This document shows, in pieces, positions 4,022-35,693 of a DNA stretch of 35,693 bases. The notes under the pieces were generated by a model that was not told the DNA's origin, ran no database searches, and saw nothing but the letters and a program-made list of their open reading frames with translations. The first letter of the stretch is position 1, and each line of letters begins with the position of its first letter. The stretch is from Chitinophagales bacterium (GTDB lineage Bacteria; Bacteroidota; Bacteroidia; Chitinophagales; S012-47), in contig WFPF01000126.1 in assembly GCA_015487695.1 (NCBI GenBank), positions 1 through 35,693 on the forward strand, in the 5' to 3' direction. The translations under genes were made by a program, and so were the position numbers.

Positions 4022-6082
4022 TCAGGGCCTGCTCAGTTTTTCTGTCAGGCGTTCGAGCTGCCCGAGGCGCCTGTTCAGTGCCTGTACCTGCGATTCAAGG
4101 CTGCGAATGCGGGCGTCCTTCTCTTCTATGAGTTCCTGTTGCTCCTGCATGGCCGATACGATAACCGGTATCATTCCCGTATAATTGACCGCTTCAAAGG
4201 AAATCCCTTCTTCCGGATCAGATGCCCTTTCTTCATCTCCATTTTCATTGATAAGTGGCAAATGATAACTCTCTTTCACCAGTTGCGGCAAAACCCGTTT
4301 CACATCATCTGCAACAAAACCATATTGTTGACTTTCCGGCAAATTCATGCGCAATTGCATATCCTTCCGGAAATGGTAACGCTTTGGATGCAGGGCCAAG
4401 ACTGCCTGAAGCCCGTCCGACAGCGCTTCCACATCCTCTTTCAAGCGTCTGTCTGATGGCAGATAATTACCCGTTGCATATACATCGCCATTAAAATATC
4501 CTGCATAGCTGTTGCTTGCTGTCGGTGCATAGCCCATCACGCCATAATTCCAGTTACCCTGAGAAGCTCTTCCATATATACCCACGTTAACACGGGTATT
4601 GGTAATGGTAGAAGAGCCTACCACACCATAACAGTTGGGATTGGAACCTATAGAGGAAGGTTGTGCCTTTGCATACAAGCCATATATAGACCCGGTTGAA
4701 ATACCTGATCGATAACCGGTACTAAGTATGTTAACATTTGCGTACCCTAATGCTCCGGTCACATATCCTCGATAAATACGAACATAATTGTCATCCTTAT
4801 TAATGACGGATATGCCGCCAGTGTAGATATTTAGAGGTTCAGCATAAGGCAAATTAGTATACATTCTCCTATAAGATATCCCTTGTGCACTTGTCCGTAC
4901 TCTCCAATAAACACTACCATTAAACATGTAATCAATTAAGAGAGAATCATATGATCCTCCTTCAAGAAGCAGTTGCGAAACATTATATGCAAACAATGGG
5001 TCTTTTTTTATGTGAAGCTGTGCCTCGGGTGTATCGGTAAGAATCCCAATGTGCCTGGATCCCAGCCCGATATGAAAAACAGGAACGCTGGGAGAGCCAA
5101 ACAAAGTCGGCCGGGTAAATAAAAAGACATCCCTTGCATCTTCGTATTCGAGGCCCCATTGGGGATAATCCGGAGAATGTCCGATGAGCATGCGCCTGTC
5201 ATTACTTGTTCCTGACGAAAACATTGTGATCATCGGTACACTGCTGCCCGCTATGGCAGGAAAAACAATGCCGGCCTGCGGATCTGCAAAAGTGAGGGTA
5301 CCGCTGTTGCCATCTACCTGAAACTTATCGCCATTGCCTACCGTAAGGGACGCACTGGGACTGGCATCACCTATGCCTACGTTGCCTGCAGTGTAATAAA
5401 TATTGTTTCCACTGCTCAGCCAGGGGCTTGTTGGCAAGTTCACCGAGCCACCGCCCTGACTTAAATTAAGTGTGCTACCGCTCAAAGAGAGGGATTGAAT
5501 TTCATTTGTCGGATCGGCATCGGCATCGTCCACCTCGTCCGTGGATGAAATGACAAAATTGGGATAAGTTCCCGAAACCGTGGTAGCCCCGCTGCCGGTG
5601 ATGACTACCGCATTACCGGGCTCCCACCGGCTTCCGTTCCACACAAGGGCCTGCTTGTTTGCCGCTGGATTGTCGCTTACGTCTGTCAGGTCCGAGAGCT
5701 TCATGTCGGTGGCAATTTTGCTGTAAGGCACCGAGCGGAAAAGCGAAGTGTCGATTTTTGACCCGTTGATTTCGGTGATCAGGTACATGTCATCAGCCGA
5801 CCAGTCGATGTCCTCAAAAATGCCGATCTCTGCCGTTCCCTCGCCCATGGCCAGGTAGAATAGGCCGAAATCATTGGTTTTCGGCTTAAAAGTCTCTTGA
5901 TAGACAATCGGGCCGGCTGCGCTTCCTTCCCGGAACTGAAAGCGTACATTGATATTGCTGTTGGCCAGTACATTGCCGTTGGCATCCCGCGCTACCGCCT
6001 GGTAATTGATGGCCGGGTTTTGTGCGAAGGATGCGGAAAGGATAAACAGAAGGGTTAGAATAATAGATATTGGTTTTTTCAT
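4022..6082 (-). CDS. Secreted tail-fibre-domain protein with C-terminal S74 intramolecular chaperone
   Basis: A 686-residue exported protein. The signal peptide is MKKPISIILTLLFILSASFA, followed by the NPAINYQAVARDANGNVL segment common at the start of Bacteroidota cell-surface proteins. The middle is a long low-complexity beta region (GSTLNLSQGGGSVNLP, GNVGIGDASPSASLTV). A peptidase_S74-type domain begins at SDRRLKED. Ser543 and Lys548 match the Ser-Lys dyad used for self-cleavage in phage endosialidase tail spikes. The last 45 or so residues form a coiled coil (IEEKDARIRSLESQVQALNRR), consistent with trimer assembly. The domain is known from phage fibres, but no other phage gene lies nearby and a Sec signal is present, so I infer a surface fibre or adhesin. 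Part of the middle (about 4600-5000) is AT-richer than the flanks. No T9SS domain is visible. Confidence 0.85.
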   Translation of the reverse strand: MKKPISIILTLLFILSASFAQNPAINYQAVARDANGNVLANSNINVRFQFREGSAAGPIVYQETFKPKTNDFGLFYLAMGEGTAEIGIFEDIDWSADDMYLITEINGSKIDTSLFRSVPYSKIATDMKLSDLTDVSDNPAANKQALVWNGSRWEPGNAVVITGSGATTVSGTYPNFVISSTDEVDDADADPTNEIQSLSLSGSTLNLSQGGGSVNLPTSPWLSSGNNIYYTAGNVGIGDASPSASLTVGNGDKFQVDGNSGTLTFADPQAGIVFPAIAGSSVPMITMFSSGTSNDRRMLIGHSPDYPQWGLEYEDARDVFLFTRPTLFGSPSVPVFHIGLGSRHIGILTDTPEAQLHIKKDPLFAYNVSQLLLEGGSYDSLLIDYMFNGSVYWRVRTSAQGISYRRMYTNLPYAEPLNIYTGGISVINKDDNYVRIYRGYVTGALGYANVNILSTGYRSGISTGSIYGLYAKAQPSSIGSNPNCYGVVGSSTITNTRVNVGIYGRASQGNWNYGVMGYAPTASNSYAGYFNGDVYATGNYLPSDRRLKEDVEALSDGLQAVLALHPKRYHFRKDMQLRMNLPESQQYGFVADDVKRVLPQLVKESYHLPLINENGDEERASDPEEGISFEAVNYTGMIPVIVSAMQEQQELIEEKDARIRSLESQVQALNRRLGQLERLTEKLSRP

Positions 6083-9394: not shown

Positions 9395-10427
9395 GTGCCC
9401 TTTGCTTTGCTCTCACAAATCGTGCGAATACGGGCAGGTGATCGCTTACGGTTCGCATTTCCGTCACGACCCTGCAATCGATGACCCGAAGCCGGGAGCG
9501 GTCGCTCAGGATGTAGTCGATGCGATAGGCAGGCGCTTCTGAGGGGAAAGTAAATTGAGCGGAAGAGGAATCTCCTTCTTCACAAGAATTTCGATATCCG
9601 TTTTCGAGAAACATTTGAACGGTTTTCTCGCCTTCCTGCGAGCGGGAATCTTTCCGGAAAGCGTTAAAATCTCCGGCTATGAGCTGCGGATGGCGTTCCG
9701 GATCTGAGATATAGTCGAGCAGTTCGCGGGCCTGTTTCTCGCGGGTACCGCGGTCATAGGCTTCGAGGTGCACATTGATGAGGCGGAGTGTATCGCTTCC
9801 CCACAGAATTTCAGCATCCTGAAACAGGCGCTGCAGATAGAATGCCTTCCAGTAGAAAGGCCGGGGCAGTGTAGCCCGGTGGAGTACGCGTTTGTTGCTC
9901 AGGATGGGGTATCGCGAGAGGACGGCCAGGCCGCTGTAGACCGAACCGAAGTGGACCCTTGGCGGCCAGTAAGGAAAGGGCACATAACGATCGTCCCAAT
10001 TGACCGCCATGGCGGCATAGGGATATCCGCAGGCACGGGCTAAGCTGTCGAGCTGCATCATCCGGCAGGAACGGTGCGAGCCGAAATCCATTTCCTGGAA
10101 AAGAATCACATCGGGTCGAAGCTCCGTGATGACTTCTATCGCTGTTTGCAGATTGCTTTCAAAGAGCGCACAGGGCCGATCCACAGCCCGGTTGTTGCTC
10201 ATTCCGCTGAGCCAGCCGATGTTGAATGTTATCACGCGCAGTGTGTCTGATGGGCTATCAGCCGGCTCGCTGCCGTAATCTCTGATCTGAGCATATTCAT
10301 CGCCCGGGTGGAGCGGTGAAGAAGCCAGAAAATAAAAAGAAAGCAATGCGAGAAGCAGCAACAGAAGCCCTGAAAAGAAGTAGGCAATGCCTCTCTTCCG
10401 GCATTTCATCGAAAGGCCTCTACTCAT
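9384..10427 (-). CDS. Membrane-anchored endonuclease/exonuclease/phosphatase (EEP) family protein
   Basis: A metal-dependent phosphodiesterase or phosphatase of the DNase I / Mg-sphingomyelinase superfamily. One N-terminal membrane segment (residues about 14-36) leaves the catalytic domain outside the cytoplasm. The conserved residues of the fold are present: Asn69 in ITFNIGW, Glu112 in ILFQEMDF, His220 in INVHLEA, Asp253 and Asn255 in AGDFNAF, and Asp329-His330 in VSDHLP. The substrate cannot be told; nucleic acid, sphingolipid and phosphoinositide enzymes share these motifs. The first ATG overlaps the end of the upstream asparaginase gene by 8 bp, and a second in-frame ATG at 10409 is equally possible. 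The overlap suggests co-transcription and coupled translation. Confidence 0.87.
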   Translation of the reverse strand: MSRGLSMKCRKRGIAYFFSGLLLLLLALLSFYFLASSPLHPGDEYAQIRDYGSEPADSPSDTLRVITFNIGWLSGMSNNRAVDRPCALFESNLQTAIEVITELRPDVILFQEMDFGSHRSCRMMQLDSLARACGYPYAAMAVNWDDRYVPFPYWPPRVHFGSVYSGLAVLSRYPILSNKRVLHRATLPRPFYWKAFYLQRLFQDAEILWGSDTLRLINVHLEAYDRGTREKQARELLDYISDPERHPQLIAGDFNAFRKDSRSQEGEKTVQMFLENGYRNSCEEGDSSSAQFTFPSEAPAYRIDYILSDRSRLRVIDCRVVTEMRTVSDHLPVFARFVRAKQRALTP

Positions 10428-30310: not shown

Positions 30311-33300
30311 ATGCGCAAAATTCTCTCTTCTCTGATACTGGCCGCTTTTCTCCTTATTCATGGCAATGCCTTTGCCGCTCACCTGGTCGGGTCCGAGATT
30401 TACTACGAGTGCATTAACGACAGCACCTACCGCGTGACCATCAAGGTCTACCGCGATTGCAAGCAGACGACAGGGGCCCAGTCATTTGATGCCCAAATTA
30501 CCGTTGGCATTTATTATGGCAACGGGAGCCTCTTTCGATTTGAAACAGTAGCTCTCAGTGAAGAAAACGATGTGCCTGTCAATGTGGATTATCCCTGTGT
30601 GGACGAGCCGGATGTATGCATCAAGCAGGGAATTTATCGCTTCACTACGCAGATTCCGCCCTCGGAGTTGGGCTACGACCTGGTGTGGCACCGCTGTTGC
30701 CGTGCCAATGACATTGTAAACATCGTCAATGCGGGCGATGTCGGCATGTCGGTATGGGCACACATTCCGGCTGTAGAACCCAATCAGCCGGTCTGCAACA
30801 ACAGTCCTAAATTCAATGCCGATCCGCCCATTCTCATCTGCACCGACCAGGATCTGGAAATAAATTCCTCTGCGAGCGATCCGGATGGTGATTCGTTGGT
30901 CTACGAACTTTGCGCCCCATTTGACGGAGCCAATACCGACCCCGGAGCACCGGTTACGAACATCCCCGATCCTCCTCCTTTGAATCCGGTCACTTTTTCT
31001 GCCCCCTATTCGGCCACATACCCGCTGCCCAGCAGCCCGCCCATGAACATCGACTCACTGGGGATCATCCGCCTAAAACCCACGCAGGCCGGTCGTTATG
31101 TGGTTGGTATCTGTGTCAAAGAATATCGTGACGGCAAGCTCATTGCCACACACCTTCGTGATTTTCACTTCCAGGTGCTTTTTTGTCCGCGCCTGGCATT
31201 TGTACAGCCCCTGCCCGACACGCTCGTTCTCTGCAAACCATTTACGGTCAATTATCAGGCAGATGCCACCAATGCCGTAAGCGTTTTCTGGGACTTCGGT
31301 GACCCGACCACGAGCAACGATACCTCTTCTTCTTTCAATCCAAGCTATACCTATCCGGCTCCGGGTACCTATACGGTCACACTCTACGCCCTCAATGCCC
31401 AGGGCTGTGGTGATACGGCTTATGCCAAAGCCGTCATCCGCAATGCGGTCAGGCCCGACTTCGATTATATCAAAGTCTGCCCCGGTGAGCCCGTGCAATT
31501 TACCAGCACCTCCGTAAGCGAAGCAGGAAATATTACACGCTATGCATGGAAGTTTGGCGATGGCGACACCTCGGACCTTGCCAATCCCCTGCATCAATAC
31601 ACTTCGGGAGGCAGCTTTACGGTCAGCCTGGAGATTTTTACGGATCAGGGCTGCTCGGAGCGCATTTTAAAACTGGTGACCTTCCATCCCAGGCCCGTTC
31701 CGAATTTCAACTATCAGAAGGTCTGTCTCAATCAGGCCGTGCAGTTCAACAATCAGTCGAGCATCAGCTCGGGCAGCATCGCCTCGTATCAGTGGGACTT
31801 CGGTGACGGCAGCCCGACCGGCAGCGGAAGCAATCCGCAGCACATCTACAGCGATACGGGGACTTATATTATCCGCATGATTGCCATATCCGATAAGGGA
31901 TGCATTGATTCCGTCAGCAAAAGCCTTTATGTAAAACCCTACCCTGTGGCCAGGGTCATGTCGGACACGAGCACCTGCAAAGACAAGGGCATACAGCTCA
32001 CGGCTTCCGGAGGCAGCAGTTATCAGTGGATGCCTGCCAACACCCTCTCACAGGCCAACATCCCCAATCCCATCGCCAGTCCGAAGGTGCCGACCATTTA
32101 TACTGTTATTGTCAGTGACGACTGTGCATCCGATACGGCAAGTATTGCCATCGGCATTTATCCCGATCCGGTTCCTGATTTCTCCTATGTGCCGAAGTGT
32201 GCCAATGAGCCGATCAGCTTCAATGACCTTTCCGTTTCGGGTATTCAGTCCTGGAAGTGGGAATTTCCGGGAGGGAGCGTGGAAACAAGCAAGAACCCGG
32301 TTCATACGTTTAATGACAACGGACCGCACCAGGTCATCCTGACGGTGAGCAACCAGTTTGGCTGCGACTCGAGCATCAGCAAAGAAGTGATTCCTTTTGA
32401 AGTGCCGGATGTGAAGTTTCAAAGCATCAAACCCGCCTGCCTGCTGAAAGAAGCCGTTTTTATTGATGAAACCTTATTTGCCCGCGACAGTGCCGTAGCC
32501 TGGAACTGGACTTTCGGTGACGGCAGCAGTGCCAGCGGTGACACCAGTTCACATACTTACCAGAGCACGGGCAGCTTTCCGGTTACTTTGCGCGTCCTCA
32601 GCGACAAAGGCTGCATGGACAGCCTGACAAAGAATTACATCATTCCGAAGATTGTGATTGGAAGTGCCAGCGGTGACACCACCATTTGCGTGCATGACCG
32701 CGCCCGTTTGCAGGCCAGCGGTGGCATCTTCTACCGGTGGCTTCCTTCGGCCAGTGTCAGCAACGACAGCATTGCAGATCCATGGGCCATGCCGCTGGAA
32801 AATACGGTTTATACGGTGCTGATATCCGATACCTGCTATCTGGACACGGCCTATGTTGCTGTAAATACCTACCCCATTCCCGACCCCTTTTTCGAATTTG
32901 ACCCGGCCTGCGAAAACGAAGCCATTGTTTTTACGGAAAACTCACAGCTTTCGGGTGATACGGTGATTAGCTGGGATTGGGACTTTGCCGGGCTGGGCAG
33001 TGCCAGCGGCAATCCGGTAGCTTTTATATTTGACAGCATCGGACCTTTTGAAGTGACCCTGCGGGTGGTCAACAACTTCGGGTGCGATACGACCGTCAGC
33101 CGAACGGTATCGCCCTATCCCCTGCCGCTGGCGGATTTTGCCATCGATAGCATCCCCTGCCCCTACGATGACCTTCCCTTCAGAAACCTTTCCAGCATCG
33201 TTTCGGGAAGCATTGCCGGCTATCAGTGGGACTTTGGTGACGGAAGCACGGGCAGCGGCCAGGACCCTTCTCATGTCTACGGAGTGCCCGATACCTATAC

Positions 33301-34135
33301 GGTCGTGCTTACGGCTATCAGTGATTTTGGCTGTGAAGACACGGCCGTGGCGGTCATATCATTCAAACCCTATGTGCGTGCCTCCATTGCGGGCGATACT
33401 ACGCTTTGCATTGGTGATACAGGCGAATTGACCGCCAGCGGTGGATATTTTTACGAGTGGAGCCCTGCCTCTGCAGGGATTTTCTCACCCTTTGATTCTG
33501 TGACGAAAATTCTTCCGGCCAGCAGCACCACCTATTCGGTCAGGGTTTCGGATGAATGCTACAGCGACTCAGCCAGCATTTCGATCGTTGTAAAGGCATT
33601 GCCGGATTTCAGCATTACTCCGGACACATCCATTTATCTGGGAGAACAGGCCCGGCTTTATATCAAGGCAGCGCCCGATGTGGACAGCTTCATCTGGTTT
33701 CCGGCTTCGATTCTGGCTCCCGGCAGCGACCCGCATGACAGCATCCTCTTTGCCCGGCCCGATTCCTCGACCTATGTTTTTATATTCGTGCGCAACATCG
33801 ATGGCTGCCGGGGTGTGGACTCCTTATACATCACTATCCTCGATGGTTTTGTAGCCATTCCCAATGCATTCTCGCCAAACGGAGACGGGTTGAATGACCA
33901 TTTCTTCCTTATCAGCAGAGGATCGGTGACGGTCAATGTCTTTCAAATCTATAATCGATGGGGCGAACTGGTTTACAGTTATTCGGGACCGGGTGATCAG
34001 AGTAGTGGATGGGATGGCAGCTTTAGGGGAAAAGCCCAGGACCCGGGCAATTATACTTATGTCTATGAAGTGGTTACCGATGATGCCTCAAGGCAGGTCT
34101 ACCGTGGCAAGGGAAGCGTGCAGCTTATTCGTTAA
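30311..34135 (+). CDS. Giant secreted PKD/Ig-repeat protein with type B (CHU_C) T9SS sorting domain
   Basis: A 1274-residue surface or secreted protein. The signal peptide (MRKILSSLILAAFLLIHGNAFA) is followed by a conserved N-terminal domain (AHLVGSEIYYECINDSTYRV) and a DPDGDSLVYELC segment up to about residue 298. Seven PKD domains follow, each with a WDFGDG-like core (YQWDFGDGSPTGSG, WNWTFGDGSSASG), in the order PKD x3, Ig-like 1 (550-625), PKD x2, Ig-like 2 (788-862), PKD x2, Ig-like 3 (1028-1100), and a further Ig-like unit. From residue 1181 (VAIPNAFSPNGDGLNDHF) to the end is the gliding-motility-associated CHU_C domain that directs T9SS export. It is probably an adhesin or gliding-surface component. 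Its stop overlaps the convergent XRE gene by 11 bp. Confidence 0.92.
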   Translation: MRKILSSLILAAFLLIHGNAFAAHLVGSEIYYECINDSTYRVTIKVYRDCKQTTGAQSFDAQITVGIYYGNGSLFRFETVALSEENDVPVNVDYPCVDEPDVCIKQGIYRFTTQIPPSELGYDLVWHRCCRANDIVNIVNAGDVGMSVWAHIPAVEPNQPVCNNSPKFNADPPILICTDQDLEINSSASDPDGDSLVYELCAPFDGANTDPGAPVTNIPDPPPLNPVTFSAPYSATYPLPSSPPMNIDSLGIIRLKPTQAGRYVVGICVKEYRDGKLIATHLRDFHFQVLFCPRLAFVQPLPDTLVLCKPFTVNYQADATNAVSVFWDFGDPTTSNDTSSSFNPSYTYPAPGTYTVTLYALNAQGCGDTAYAKAVIRNAVRPDFDYIKVCPGEPVQFTSTSVSEAGNITRYAWKFGDGDTSDLANPLHQYTSGGSFTVSLEIFTDQGCSERILKLVTFHPRPVPNFNYQKVCLNQAVQFNNQSSISSGSIASYQWDFGDGSPTGSGSNPQHIYSDTGTYIIRMIAISDKGCIDSVSKSLYVKPYPVARVMSDTSTCKDKGIQLTASGGSSYQWMPANTLSQANIPNPIASPKVPTIYTVIVSDDCASDTASIAIGIYPDPVPDFSYVPKCANEPISFNDLSVSGIQSWKWEFPGGSVETSKNPVHTFNDNGPHQVILTVSNQFGCDSSISKEVIPFEVPDVKFQSIKPACLLKEAVFIDETLFARDSAVAWNWTFGDGSSASGDTSSHTYQSTGSFPVTLRVLSDKGCMDSLTKNYIIPKIVIGSASGDTTICVHDRARLQASGGIFYRWLPSASVSNDSIADPWAMPLENTVYTVLISDTCYLDTAYVAVNTYPIPDPFFEFDPACENEAIVFTENSQLSGDTVISWDWDFAGLGSASGNPVAFIFDSIGPFEVTLRVVNNFGCDTTVSRTVSPYPLPLADFAIDSIPCPYDDLPFRNLSSIVSGSIAGYQWDFGDGSTGSGQDPSHVYGVPDTYTVVLTAISDFGCEDTAVAVISFKPYVRASIAGDTTLCIGDTGELTASGGYFYEWSPASAGIFSPFDSVTKILPASSTTYSVRVSDECYSDSASISIVVKALPDFSITPDTSIYLGEQARLYIKAAPDVDSFIWFPASILAPGSDPHDSILFARPDSSTYVFIFVRNIDGCRGVDSLYITILDGFVAIPNAFSPNGDGLNDHFFLISRGSVTVNVFQIYNRWGELVYSYSGPGDQSSGWDGSFRGKAQDPGNYTYVYEVVTDDASRQVYRGKGSVQLIR

Positions 34136-34736
34136 CAGAGTCACTTTTGATAAAGATATCCGAATCTTTACTACGGTCTGAATCTTTGGATTCATAGTAA
34201 CTTTTATATACAGGGTATCTTTTGATAAAAGAAAGCATAGACTCGAGGGAGCGCAACCTTTCCCTCAGGCGTTCAATCTCATTCACAAGTACTTGAATAT
34301 GTTTATCTACATCTTCTGAATCCATAATCTTATGAAATTCCGAAATAGATAATTTTTCCTTTAAAAAAGTTAAGTTTTCATTTAATACCGGGCTTTCCGA
34401 TTCAAGTTTCGTACGATCTTCCGATGTGAGTAGCCGAAAGTCTCTTTTCATATCCGCTTTCAGATTGAATGAATCATCCGTCCTAAACGAGTAATGCTCT
34501 TCTTCGAACTGAATAGTCATGTCTCCCCGATTGCTTAGATCCTCCGCAGTAAGACCATGAATATCCACACCGAAAAGATTTGCGATTTTTCTCAGGGTTT
34601 TGTACGGAGGCATGGAAATGCCCATTTCATAATTGGAAATGGTTGTGCGCTTCACGTCCAATCTTTTTGCAAGATCCTCTTGTGACCATCCGAGCTTCTT
34701 TCTCAGGAAAGCAATATTGGCTCCGAAACGATCCAT
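34125..34736 (-). CDS. XRE family helix-turn-helix regulator with C-terminal coiled coil
   Basis: A 203-residue DNA-binding protein. The HTH_3 domain spans residues about 6-65 (IAFLRKKLGWSQEDLAKRL, then VKRTTISNYEMGISMPPYKTL). The rest is charged and unrecognised, with a coiled coil near VNEIERLRERLRSLESML and an Asp/Ser/Lys-rich tail containing two KDSD repeats. I chose ATG 34736, because relatives begin just before the HTH; the longer frame adds a 24-residue basic-hydrophobic leader with no match. TATATTTA lies 5 nt upstream (34742-34749). It is divergent from the ARPP-1-like gene, and the 134-bp gap carries inverted repeats that are likely its binding sites. The gene is AT-richer than the flanking DNA. 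The coiled coil suggests it works as a dimer or higher multimer. Confidence 0.88.
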   Translation of the reverse strand: MDRFGANIAFLRKKLGWSQEDLAKRLDVKRTTISNYEMGISMPPYKTLRKIANLFGVDIHGLTAEDLSNRGDMTIQFEEEHYSFRTDDSFNLKADMKRDFRLLTSEDRTKLESESPVLNENLTFLKEKLSISEFHKIMDSEDVDKHIQVLVNEIERLRERLRSLESMLSFIKRYPVYKSYYESKDSDRSKDSDIFIKSDSVNE

Positions 34737-34741
34737 ACGGA

Positions 34742-34749
34742 TAAATATA
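34742..34749 (-). promoter_or_regulatory. Candidate -7 element of the XRE gene
   Basis: Read leftward, TATATTTA matches TAnnTTTG at seven of eight positions and lies 5 nt before the chosen ATG, so the message would be nearly leaderless. The half-site at 34759-34763 is just upstream, where a bound regulator could block its own promoter. Confidence 0.4.
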
Positions 34750-34758
34750 CGGAATAAT

Positions 34759-34763
34759 GTCAA
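34759..34763. promoter_or_regulatory. Operator half-site GTCAA
   Basis: GTCAA in the same orientation as the first arm of operator 1 and 18 bp before it, in a TGTCAAgat context. It has no matching TTGAC arm at the proper distance. Read as part of an array, it would place a regulator contact close to the XRE -7 element. Confidence 0.4.
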
Positions 34764-34776
34764 GATAGTTTTAAAT

Positions 34777-34791
34777 GTCAAATATTTTGAC
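34777..34791. promoter_or_regulatory. Operator 1 for the XRE regulator (GTCAA-N5-TTGAC)
   Basis: GTCAAATATTTTGAC is a 15-bp inverted repeat with 6-bp perfect arms (GTCAAA and TTTGAC) around TAT. It covers the TTTTG that would be the -33 element of the rightward ARPP-1-like promoter, so binding should affect that gene directly. No footprint is available; this is inferred from symmetry and position. Confidence 0.65.
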
Positions 34792-34818
34792 TTATATTCG
34801 TTTCGCAATCTACATTTA
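34787..34818 (+). promoter_or_regulatory. Candidate promoter of the ARPP-1-like gene
   Basis: TTG at 34787-34789 and TACATTTA at 34811-34818 are separated by 21 bp. The -7 string matches TAnnTTTG at seven of eight positions. The -33 element lies inside operator 1. The predicted start of transcription leaves a leader of about 45 nt that contains operator 2. Confidence 0.5.
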
Positions 34819-34853
34819 TTTGATATTGTATCATTTAAATGTTTTTTATCACC

Positions 34854-34868
34854 GTCAAAATTATTGAC
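34854..34868. promoter_or_regulatory. Operator 2 for the XRE regulator (GTCAA-N5-TTGAC)
   Basis: GTCAAAATTATTGAC shares 15-bp length, arms GTCAA and TTGAC and an AT-rich centre with operator 1. It ends 2 bp before the ATG of the ARPP-1-like gene. A bound protein here would block elongation rather than initiation; as RNA, the same bases could form a weak hairpin over the start codon. Confidence 0.6.
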
Positions 34869-34870
34869 TT

Positions 34871-35693
34871 ATGCAGACAAAAGAAGCTCTTCTATTTTCA
34901 TCCGTTCAAATCGGTGATCCCAGTCCTTTTGGCAACTACCAAATCTACCCGCTCTTCCTCAACGGAGACTCACACCCCGCTTACACGACCCTTTTATCGC
35001 CCGGCAGCAAAGAAAAAATAAGAATAAGTGAGGAAGAAAATGCCCGGGTAGGTCGTATACAAATCAGCAATCAGGCTGAAGTGCCTGTACTCATTCCCAA
35101 CGGCCAGGCGCTTATCGGAGCCAAGCAAAACAGAACCGCGAACCGCGACTTTCTGATTCAGGCCGGCAGCAGCTCTTTCATTGATGTATCATGTACAGAA
35201 AAAGGGCGCTGGAGCTTTCGTGGTTTTAAGAATTTCATTCCTTCTGATGACCTTGATCCTTTATGGATTAAGAAAGTGAAGATAATCGAGGAGCTAAAAG
35301 GGCTCGGAAAAATCAAAGCAGGAGAATTCCCCTTAAATCATTCTCTAAGTTTACAATCAAGAATATGGGATAATATTAATTATCACAGTAAATCCGGAGG
35401 TGTAGAATCCCGTACCTCCGCACTTCGGGATATTACGTTGAAAAGGGATGAAAATCTACGAAAAAAGAGGATACAAATTCCTGAACTTAAAGCGGATCAG
35501 GAAGGCATCCTGGTCACAAAGCGCGGCAATGTCATAGCTATGGAGTGCCTGAGGGGGCCGGAAAACTATGCCCTCTATCACAAAGCCATTGTCAGAAGTT
35601 TAACCTTCGAAGATTTTCAAATGGACCGTATCAGGGAAGAAAGTCATCCCGATCTGGTTTACGAGTGGCTCGATTCGTTGAACGAAATGACAC
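34871..35693 (+). CDS. ARPP-1 domain-like protein, 3' end cut by the window edge
   Basis: The frame is open from ATG 34871 to the window end, 274 codons seen. The first 110 residues match what I know as the ARPP-1 domain (ARG and Rhodanese-Phosphatase-superfamily-associated protein 1). Features include FGNYQIYPLFLNGDS, the core VPVLIPNGQALIGAKQNRTA with its invariant GAKQNR, and FIDVSCTEKGRWSF. The biochemical role of the domain is not established. The rest is less conserved, but ILVTKRGNVIAMECLRGPENY resembles a second half of the same family. There is no signal peptide, so it is probably cytoplasmic. It is divergent from the XRE regulator, with two operators between them, and the local DNA is AT-rich. 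Family assignment is from memory of the motif; function is unknown. Confidence 0.7.
   Translation, partial: MQTKEALLFSSVQIGDPSPFGNYQIYPLFLNGDSHPAYTTLLSPGSKEKIRISEEENARVGRIQISNQAEVPVLIPNGQALIGAKQNRTANRDFLIQAGSSSFIDVSCTEKGRWSFRGFKNFIPSDDLDPLWIKKVKIIEELKGLGKIKAGEFPLNHSLSLQSRIWDNINYHSKSGGVESRTSALRDITLKRDENLRKKRIQIPELKADQEGILVTKRGNVIAMECLRGPENYALYHKAIVRSLTFEDFQMDRIREESHPDLVYEWLDSLNEMT

Follow-up and report, generated by a model that had tools for sequence, protein, structure and literature searches.

The window analysed here is the entire contig C126 (35693 bases) of a Chitinophagales genome of 2.77 Mb in 137 contigs (G000, hereafter the host genome). At its right end, the gene of an XRE-family regulator and that of a protein of the ARPP-1 family diverge from a spacer in which two putative operators are found, and the contig ends within the ARPP-1 gene, truncating the copy named ARPP-1a. 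The features of the locus are listed below together with their counterparts in G003 (JALSIH01), a Chitinophagales MAG of the same genus.

34125-34736, minus strand: XRE-family regulator of 203 aa, with an N-terminal HTH at about residues 4-60 (Pfam HTH_3) and a helical C-terminal part
34737-34870, no strand: divergent spacer between XRE and ARPP-1, 134 bp
34759-34763, plus strand: GTCAA half-site, probably within an XRE promoter element (TATCTTGA on the minus strand) and not an operator; GCCAA in G003
34777-34791, no strand: putative operator 1, GTCAAATATTTTGAC, exact GTCAA-N5-TTGAC, on the core promoter of ARPP-1; unchanged in G003 (L039 8166-8180)
34786-34818, plus strand: ARPP-1 promoter predicted by promoter scoring, TTTG at 34786-34789, 21 nt, TACATTTA at 34811-34818
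34854-34868, no strand: putative operator 2, GTCAAAATTATTGAC, exact GTCAA-N5-TTGAC, 2 bp before the ARPP-1 ATG (34871); GTCAAATTTATTGAC in G003 (L039 8241-8255)
34871-35692, plus strand: 5' part of ARPP-1 gene a (PF20208), 274 codons up to the end of the contig

The main features of an earlier, sequence-only reading of this locus are borne out. The regulator matches HTH_3 (E 5e-18) and HTH_19 (E 2e-15), with an HTH of the Cro/CI type, and the divergent gene matches PF20208 (E 4e-44, 151.5 bits against a cut-off of 27). Both 15-bp sites described in the gap are exact; the first holds the TTTG of the best-scoring promoter, and so covers the predicted -33, while the second stops 2 bp short of the start codon.

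On its other side, the XRE gene converges with that of a 1274-aa PKD protein carrying a type IX secretion domain (30311-34135), the two ends overlapping by 11 bp. The remaining neighbours encode a Sir2 protein, an adenine deaminase and an S74 adhesin-like protein; an S74-domain-like surface protein is encoded at window positions 4022-6082. The stress or conflict setting suggested from the layout finds no counterpart here, since no such genes adjoin the XRE/ARPP-1 locus. Among the neighbour domains examined there was no rhodanese-phosphatase, chaperone or nuclease gene, and ADP-ribosylglycohydrolase (PF03747) was absent from the five window neighbours and the neighbour on contig C123, all of which carry other domains; the same search does detect PF03747 beside ARPP-1 in L117.

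Conservation in a sister species

Gene order in G003 is the same as in the host (PKD protein, XRE on the minus strand, ARPP-1 on the plus strand), and its spacer carries GTCAAATATTTTGAC and GTCAAATTTATTGAC at positions matching the host sites. Between the two spacers, all 20 arm bases and 29 of the 30 bases in the sites agree, compared with 74% of the sequence outside them (Fisher P 0.004). Neighbours and inverted repeats are thus retained together in a related genome. The GTCAA half-site that had been counted with the full sites is present in the host but absent from G003, where its position reads GCCAA. Because of this change, and because it lies inside a TAnnTTG-like stretch, the half-site is probably part of the XRE promoter's own element and is not counted as an operator.

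The two regulators share 88% identity in the HTH and 28% in the C-terminus, as expected if selection holds the DNA contacts, and the ARPP-1a orthologue of G003 (315 aa) is 56-57% identical to the window protein. Relatives were found by an alignment query of genome contigs, a single-protein query having given no match. The locus was found in two genomes only, and conservation as used here refers to one species pair and one paralogue. Relatives of the upstream Sir2 gene occur in two further genera of this family, with neither XRE nor ARPP-1 adjoining them, and for this reason the XRE/ARPP-1 module appears to be genus-level.

A second ARPP-1 gene beyond the window

In G003, a second ARPP-1 gene (ARPP-1b), 34% identical to the window protein, lies downstream of the first. 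It is preceded by its own site pair, GTCAACTATTTTGAC and GTCAAAATTTTTGAA at 9888 and 9963, with the 75-bp spacing repeated and the second site once more reaching the start codon; this second site has a mismatch in one arm (TTGAA). What this promoter shares with that of ARPP-1a is mainly the site pair, with almost no conservation elsewhere. The gene after ARPP-1b encodes an S74-type protein whose host counterpart is on contig C123, and the first 246 bases of that contig (C123:1-246, L194) encode the C-terminal end of an ARPP-1 protein (81 residues, 75% identity to G003 ARPP-1b), beside the same S74 gene. The host therefore has both ARPP-1 genes with an assembly gap between them, and the locus continues past the window, as had been suspected. 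Contigs C126 and C123 probably join across a short gap, in which the second operator pair of the host is predicted to be located.

The three complete or near-complete ARPP-1 proteins of the genus, one from the window and two from G003, form one clade in the tree (100/98), with ARPP-1b on a long branch; the duplication is thus placed before the split of the two species.

Occurrence of the operator pair

The exact motif occurred twice within the 134-bp spacer in 0 of 20,000 dinucleotide shuffles (the observed pair spans 92 bp), and a repeated inverted-repeat pair with any 5-bp arm appeared in 18 of 5,000 spacer shuffles. For what are still candidate operators, conservation is a stronger proof of the pair than these shuffle statistics.

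The genome search for GTCAA-N5-TTGAC that the earlier reading had proposed gave a divided answer. The single site is not enriched in the host genome (7 exact places versus 8 for the reversed control). Beyond the pair, four of the remaining five exact sites are within ORFs of at least 80 codons and one (C18) is in no such ORF, and no gene start was found near any of the five. The doubled site gave another picture: when two such sites 48-76 bp apart were sought in 398 genomes of the order, G000 yielded one place and G003 two, precisely those described above, and the only other hits were five unrelated places, including several tandem repeats, which makes the arrangement almost unique in the order.

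A wider regulon was considered and set aside, the other exact sites having no nearby gene start. A near-perfect single site, GTCAAATTTTTTGAG, at L197 1500-1514 (host contig C11), lies immediately ahead of an ORF that carries an FkbM methyltransferase domain; this promoter-like site could be a further target or a product of chance.

Promoter placement

The promoter consensus of Bacteroidota is TTTG/TANNTTTG (PMC6847099). The combination of TTTG at 34786, 21 nt and TACATTTA at 34811 is the top-scoring promoter of this type on the plus strand in the window, and the same placement is conserved in G003, there as joint best. An alternative placement uses TATATTCG at 34793 (TATGTTTG in G003), in which case site 1 falls between the promoter elements. 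Site 1 is on the ARPP-1 core promoter under either placement, and site 2 is downstream of either predicted start and extends as far as the ATG. Each of these positions is that of a repressor. The centre-to-centre spacing of 75-77 bp corresponds to 7.1-7.3 helical turns, which allows a DNA loop without proving or strongly favouring one. Upstream of the second ARPP-1 gene of G003, the plus strand yielded no good match to a promoter.

The regulator and its output protein

No ligand-binding domain was recognised in the XRE protein, and the domain search gave no match to a WYL domain. Its HTH resembles those of antitoxins and phage repressors in general models, with every match below cut-off. The AlphaFold model is weak overall (pLDDT 56, with about 75 for the helix at residues 143-173), and the predicted structure was set aside as evidence because of this weakness.

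ARPP-1 proteins are distributed across many bacterial phyla and the archaea. The literature searched held no experiment on ARPP-1 (PF20208, DUF6569). The function of the output protein had been called not deducible, but it is not wholly opaque: PMC9503650, which named ARPP, describes an invariant Cys and Gln and predicts an enzyme, with sugar-containing molecules as proposed substrates. In a 29-row alignment including the window protein, Q86 and C108 are invariant; the window protein retains Q86, R88, C108, E110, R113, W114, Q162, W166 and G212, of which Q86, C108, W166 and G212 are family-invariant. The model of the G003 ARPP-1a orthologue (pLDDT 90, pTM 0.90) had no match in the PDB or viral libraries. 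By inspection, the ARPP-1 proteins of the genus are without a signal-like leader, unlike many ARPP-1 proteins of Bacteroidota. The anti-phage defence models of PADLOC gave no match for either ARPP-1. A link with phages was rejected, with no phage record and one partial match to a viral contig.

ARPP-1 neighbourhoods in other genomes

The ARPP contexts described in PMC9503650 comprise ADP-ribosylglycohydrolases, HIRAN, WYL regulators and PF01522 deacetylases; the regulators named there are WYL and Nudix, and the section consulted mentions no pairing of MerR or XRE with ARPP-1. Upstream of ARPP-1 in named genomes (n=55), WYL/WCX regulators were counted about 11 times, MerR five times and HTH_3 in G003 only, the WYL and MerR counts being approximate, as neighbouring genes were taken from the longest ORFs, a simple rule that is rough in GC-rich genomes. 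MerR-type regulators are directly upstream of ARPP-1 in L123, L130, L174, L175 and L181 (Actinomycetota and Gemmatimonadota). In one genome of the class, several ARPP-1 ORFs stand in a row, including an apparent split copy (L057 7460-11363).

To look for pairing outside the genus, a sample of genomes was examined. At about 40 loci of the order and class, no XRE gene was found beside ARPP-1, save regulators of the different XRE plus Peptidase_M78 type, which occur close to ARPP-1 in L075 and also, beyond Bacteroidota, in L150. A pairing conserved across Bacteroidota, which the earlier reading had proposed to look for, thus did not emerge, and among these loci only the genus has it. Moreover, a repeated inverted repeat was absent from all the divergent ARPP-1 spacers tested, whether of WYL, MerR or other loci. 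Since ARPP-1 is elsewhere often beside WYL or MerR, the XRE gene is, judged by its neighbourhood, a new occupant of a recurrent regulator slot, and this replacement of one regulator by another (WYL, MerR, XRE) suggests one need met by different sensors.

Discussion

The self-regulated switch with an ARPP-1 output is well supported by the conserved gene order, operator pair and HTH, together with the copied pair at ARPP-1b. With a probability of roughly 0.7, we consider that an autoregulated XRE repressor keeps two ARPP-1 genes off until a cellular signal arrives. The regulator, probably as a dimer, would bind the GTCAA-N5-TTGAC sites. At site 1, on the ARPP-1 core promoter and near its own promoter, it would repress both ARPP-1a and itself. 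Site 2 follows the predicted transcription start and precedes the ATG, and the protein bound there may form an added roadblock or help a loop with site 1. The copied pair would place ARPP-1b under the same control. Once a cellular signal lifted repression, two ARPP-1 proteins, both cytosolic, would be produced; these are predicted to be Cys/Gln enzymes with sugar-containing molecules as substrates.

The position of the sites also bears on the sign of the regulation. Some XRE proteins are activators, and site 1 lies against or across the -33 region, a place from which activators can work; XRE might thus recruit RNA polymerase through site 1 to activate ARPP-1, perhaps repressing itself. Such a role is unlikely, as site 1 lies on the -33 or, under the alternative promoter, on the spacer between the elements, and site 2 is downstream of the predicted start and just before the ATG, a position suited to a repressor.

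It is less probable still that the sites serve a different regulator of wider scope, with XRE as an incidental neighbour. Binding of XRE to the sites is a prediction, and a single near-site does precede an unrelated gene on C11, but the doubled site is practically confined to the ARPP-1 genes of the genus, the other exact sites of the genome are not before gene starts, and the HTH is the best-conserved part of an otherwise fast-changing XRE neighbour.

The sub-threshold likeness of the HTH to those of antitoxins and phage repressors could be read as a toxin-antitoxin pair in which XRE neutralises an ARPP-1 toxin. This is very improbable: the genes are divergent rather than in a single operon, and so are not co-transcribed as in type II systems, ARPP-1 is widespread alone, many of its forms have an N-terminal signal-like leader, and PADLOC is without an ARPP-1 match. 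Least credible of all are RNA hairpins or chance palindromes in a spacer that is AT-rich, with sites that are short, as site 1 is upstream of the predicted start, the stems are only 5 bp, and the arms are fully conserved between species and nearly so in the promoter of a diverged paralogue.

Returning to the autoregulated repressor, a more specific and doubtful extension is that the dedicated XRE repressor and its doubled operator control a two-member ARPP-1 module which senses and processes a sugar- or ADP-ribose-type damage product. Were this true, it would be the first ARPP system with a regulatory circuit readable from sequence, which could be used to find the inducer of the family. A defined candidate operator and repressor provide a handle in themselves, as a promoter reporter could show which signal induces ARPP-1.

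In classical autorepressors of the XRE/Cro/CI type, an HTH_3 protein faces a divergent target, and palindromic sites are in the common spacer, one of them over the promoter. The present locus resembles them in its HTH_3 protein, the palindromic sites of the spacer and the site on the promoter, but differs in the XRE C-terminus, a poorly conserved helical region with no known sensor or peptidase domain. The predicted anti-ADP-ribosylation systems centred on ADP-ribosylglycohydrolase (ARG), with Nudix or WYL repressors (PMC9503650), likewise have ARPP-1 under a presumed negative regulator. Unlike them, the locus has no ADP-ribosylglycohydrolase, rhodanese-phosphatase, chaperone or nuclease gene nearby, and because no ADP-ribosylglycohydrolase is beside it, it is not classed as an ARG-centred conflict system. 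In layout the locus is also like the two-gene ARPP-WYL neighbourhoods of PMC9503650, in which ARPP-1 adjoins a one-component DNA-binding regulator, often divergently; here, by contrast, the regulator is an XRE protein without a WYL domain, the putative operator is doubled and traceable, and two ARPP-1 genes are present.
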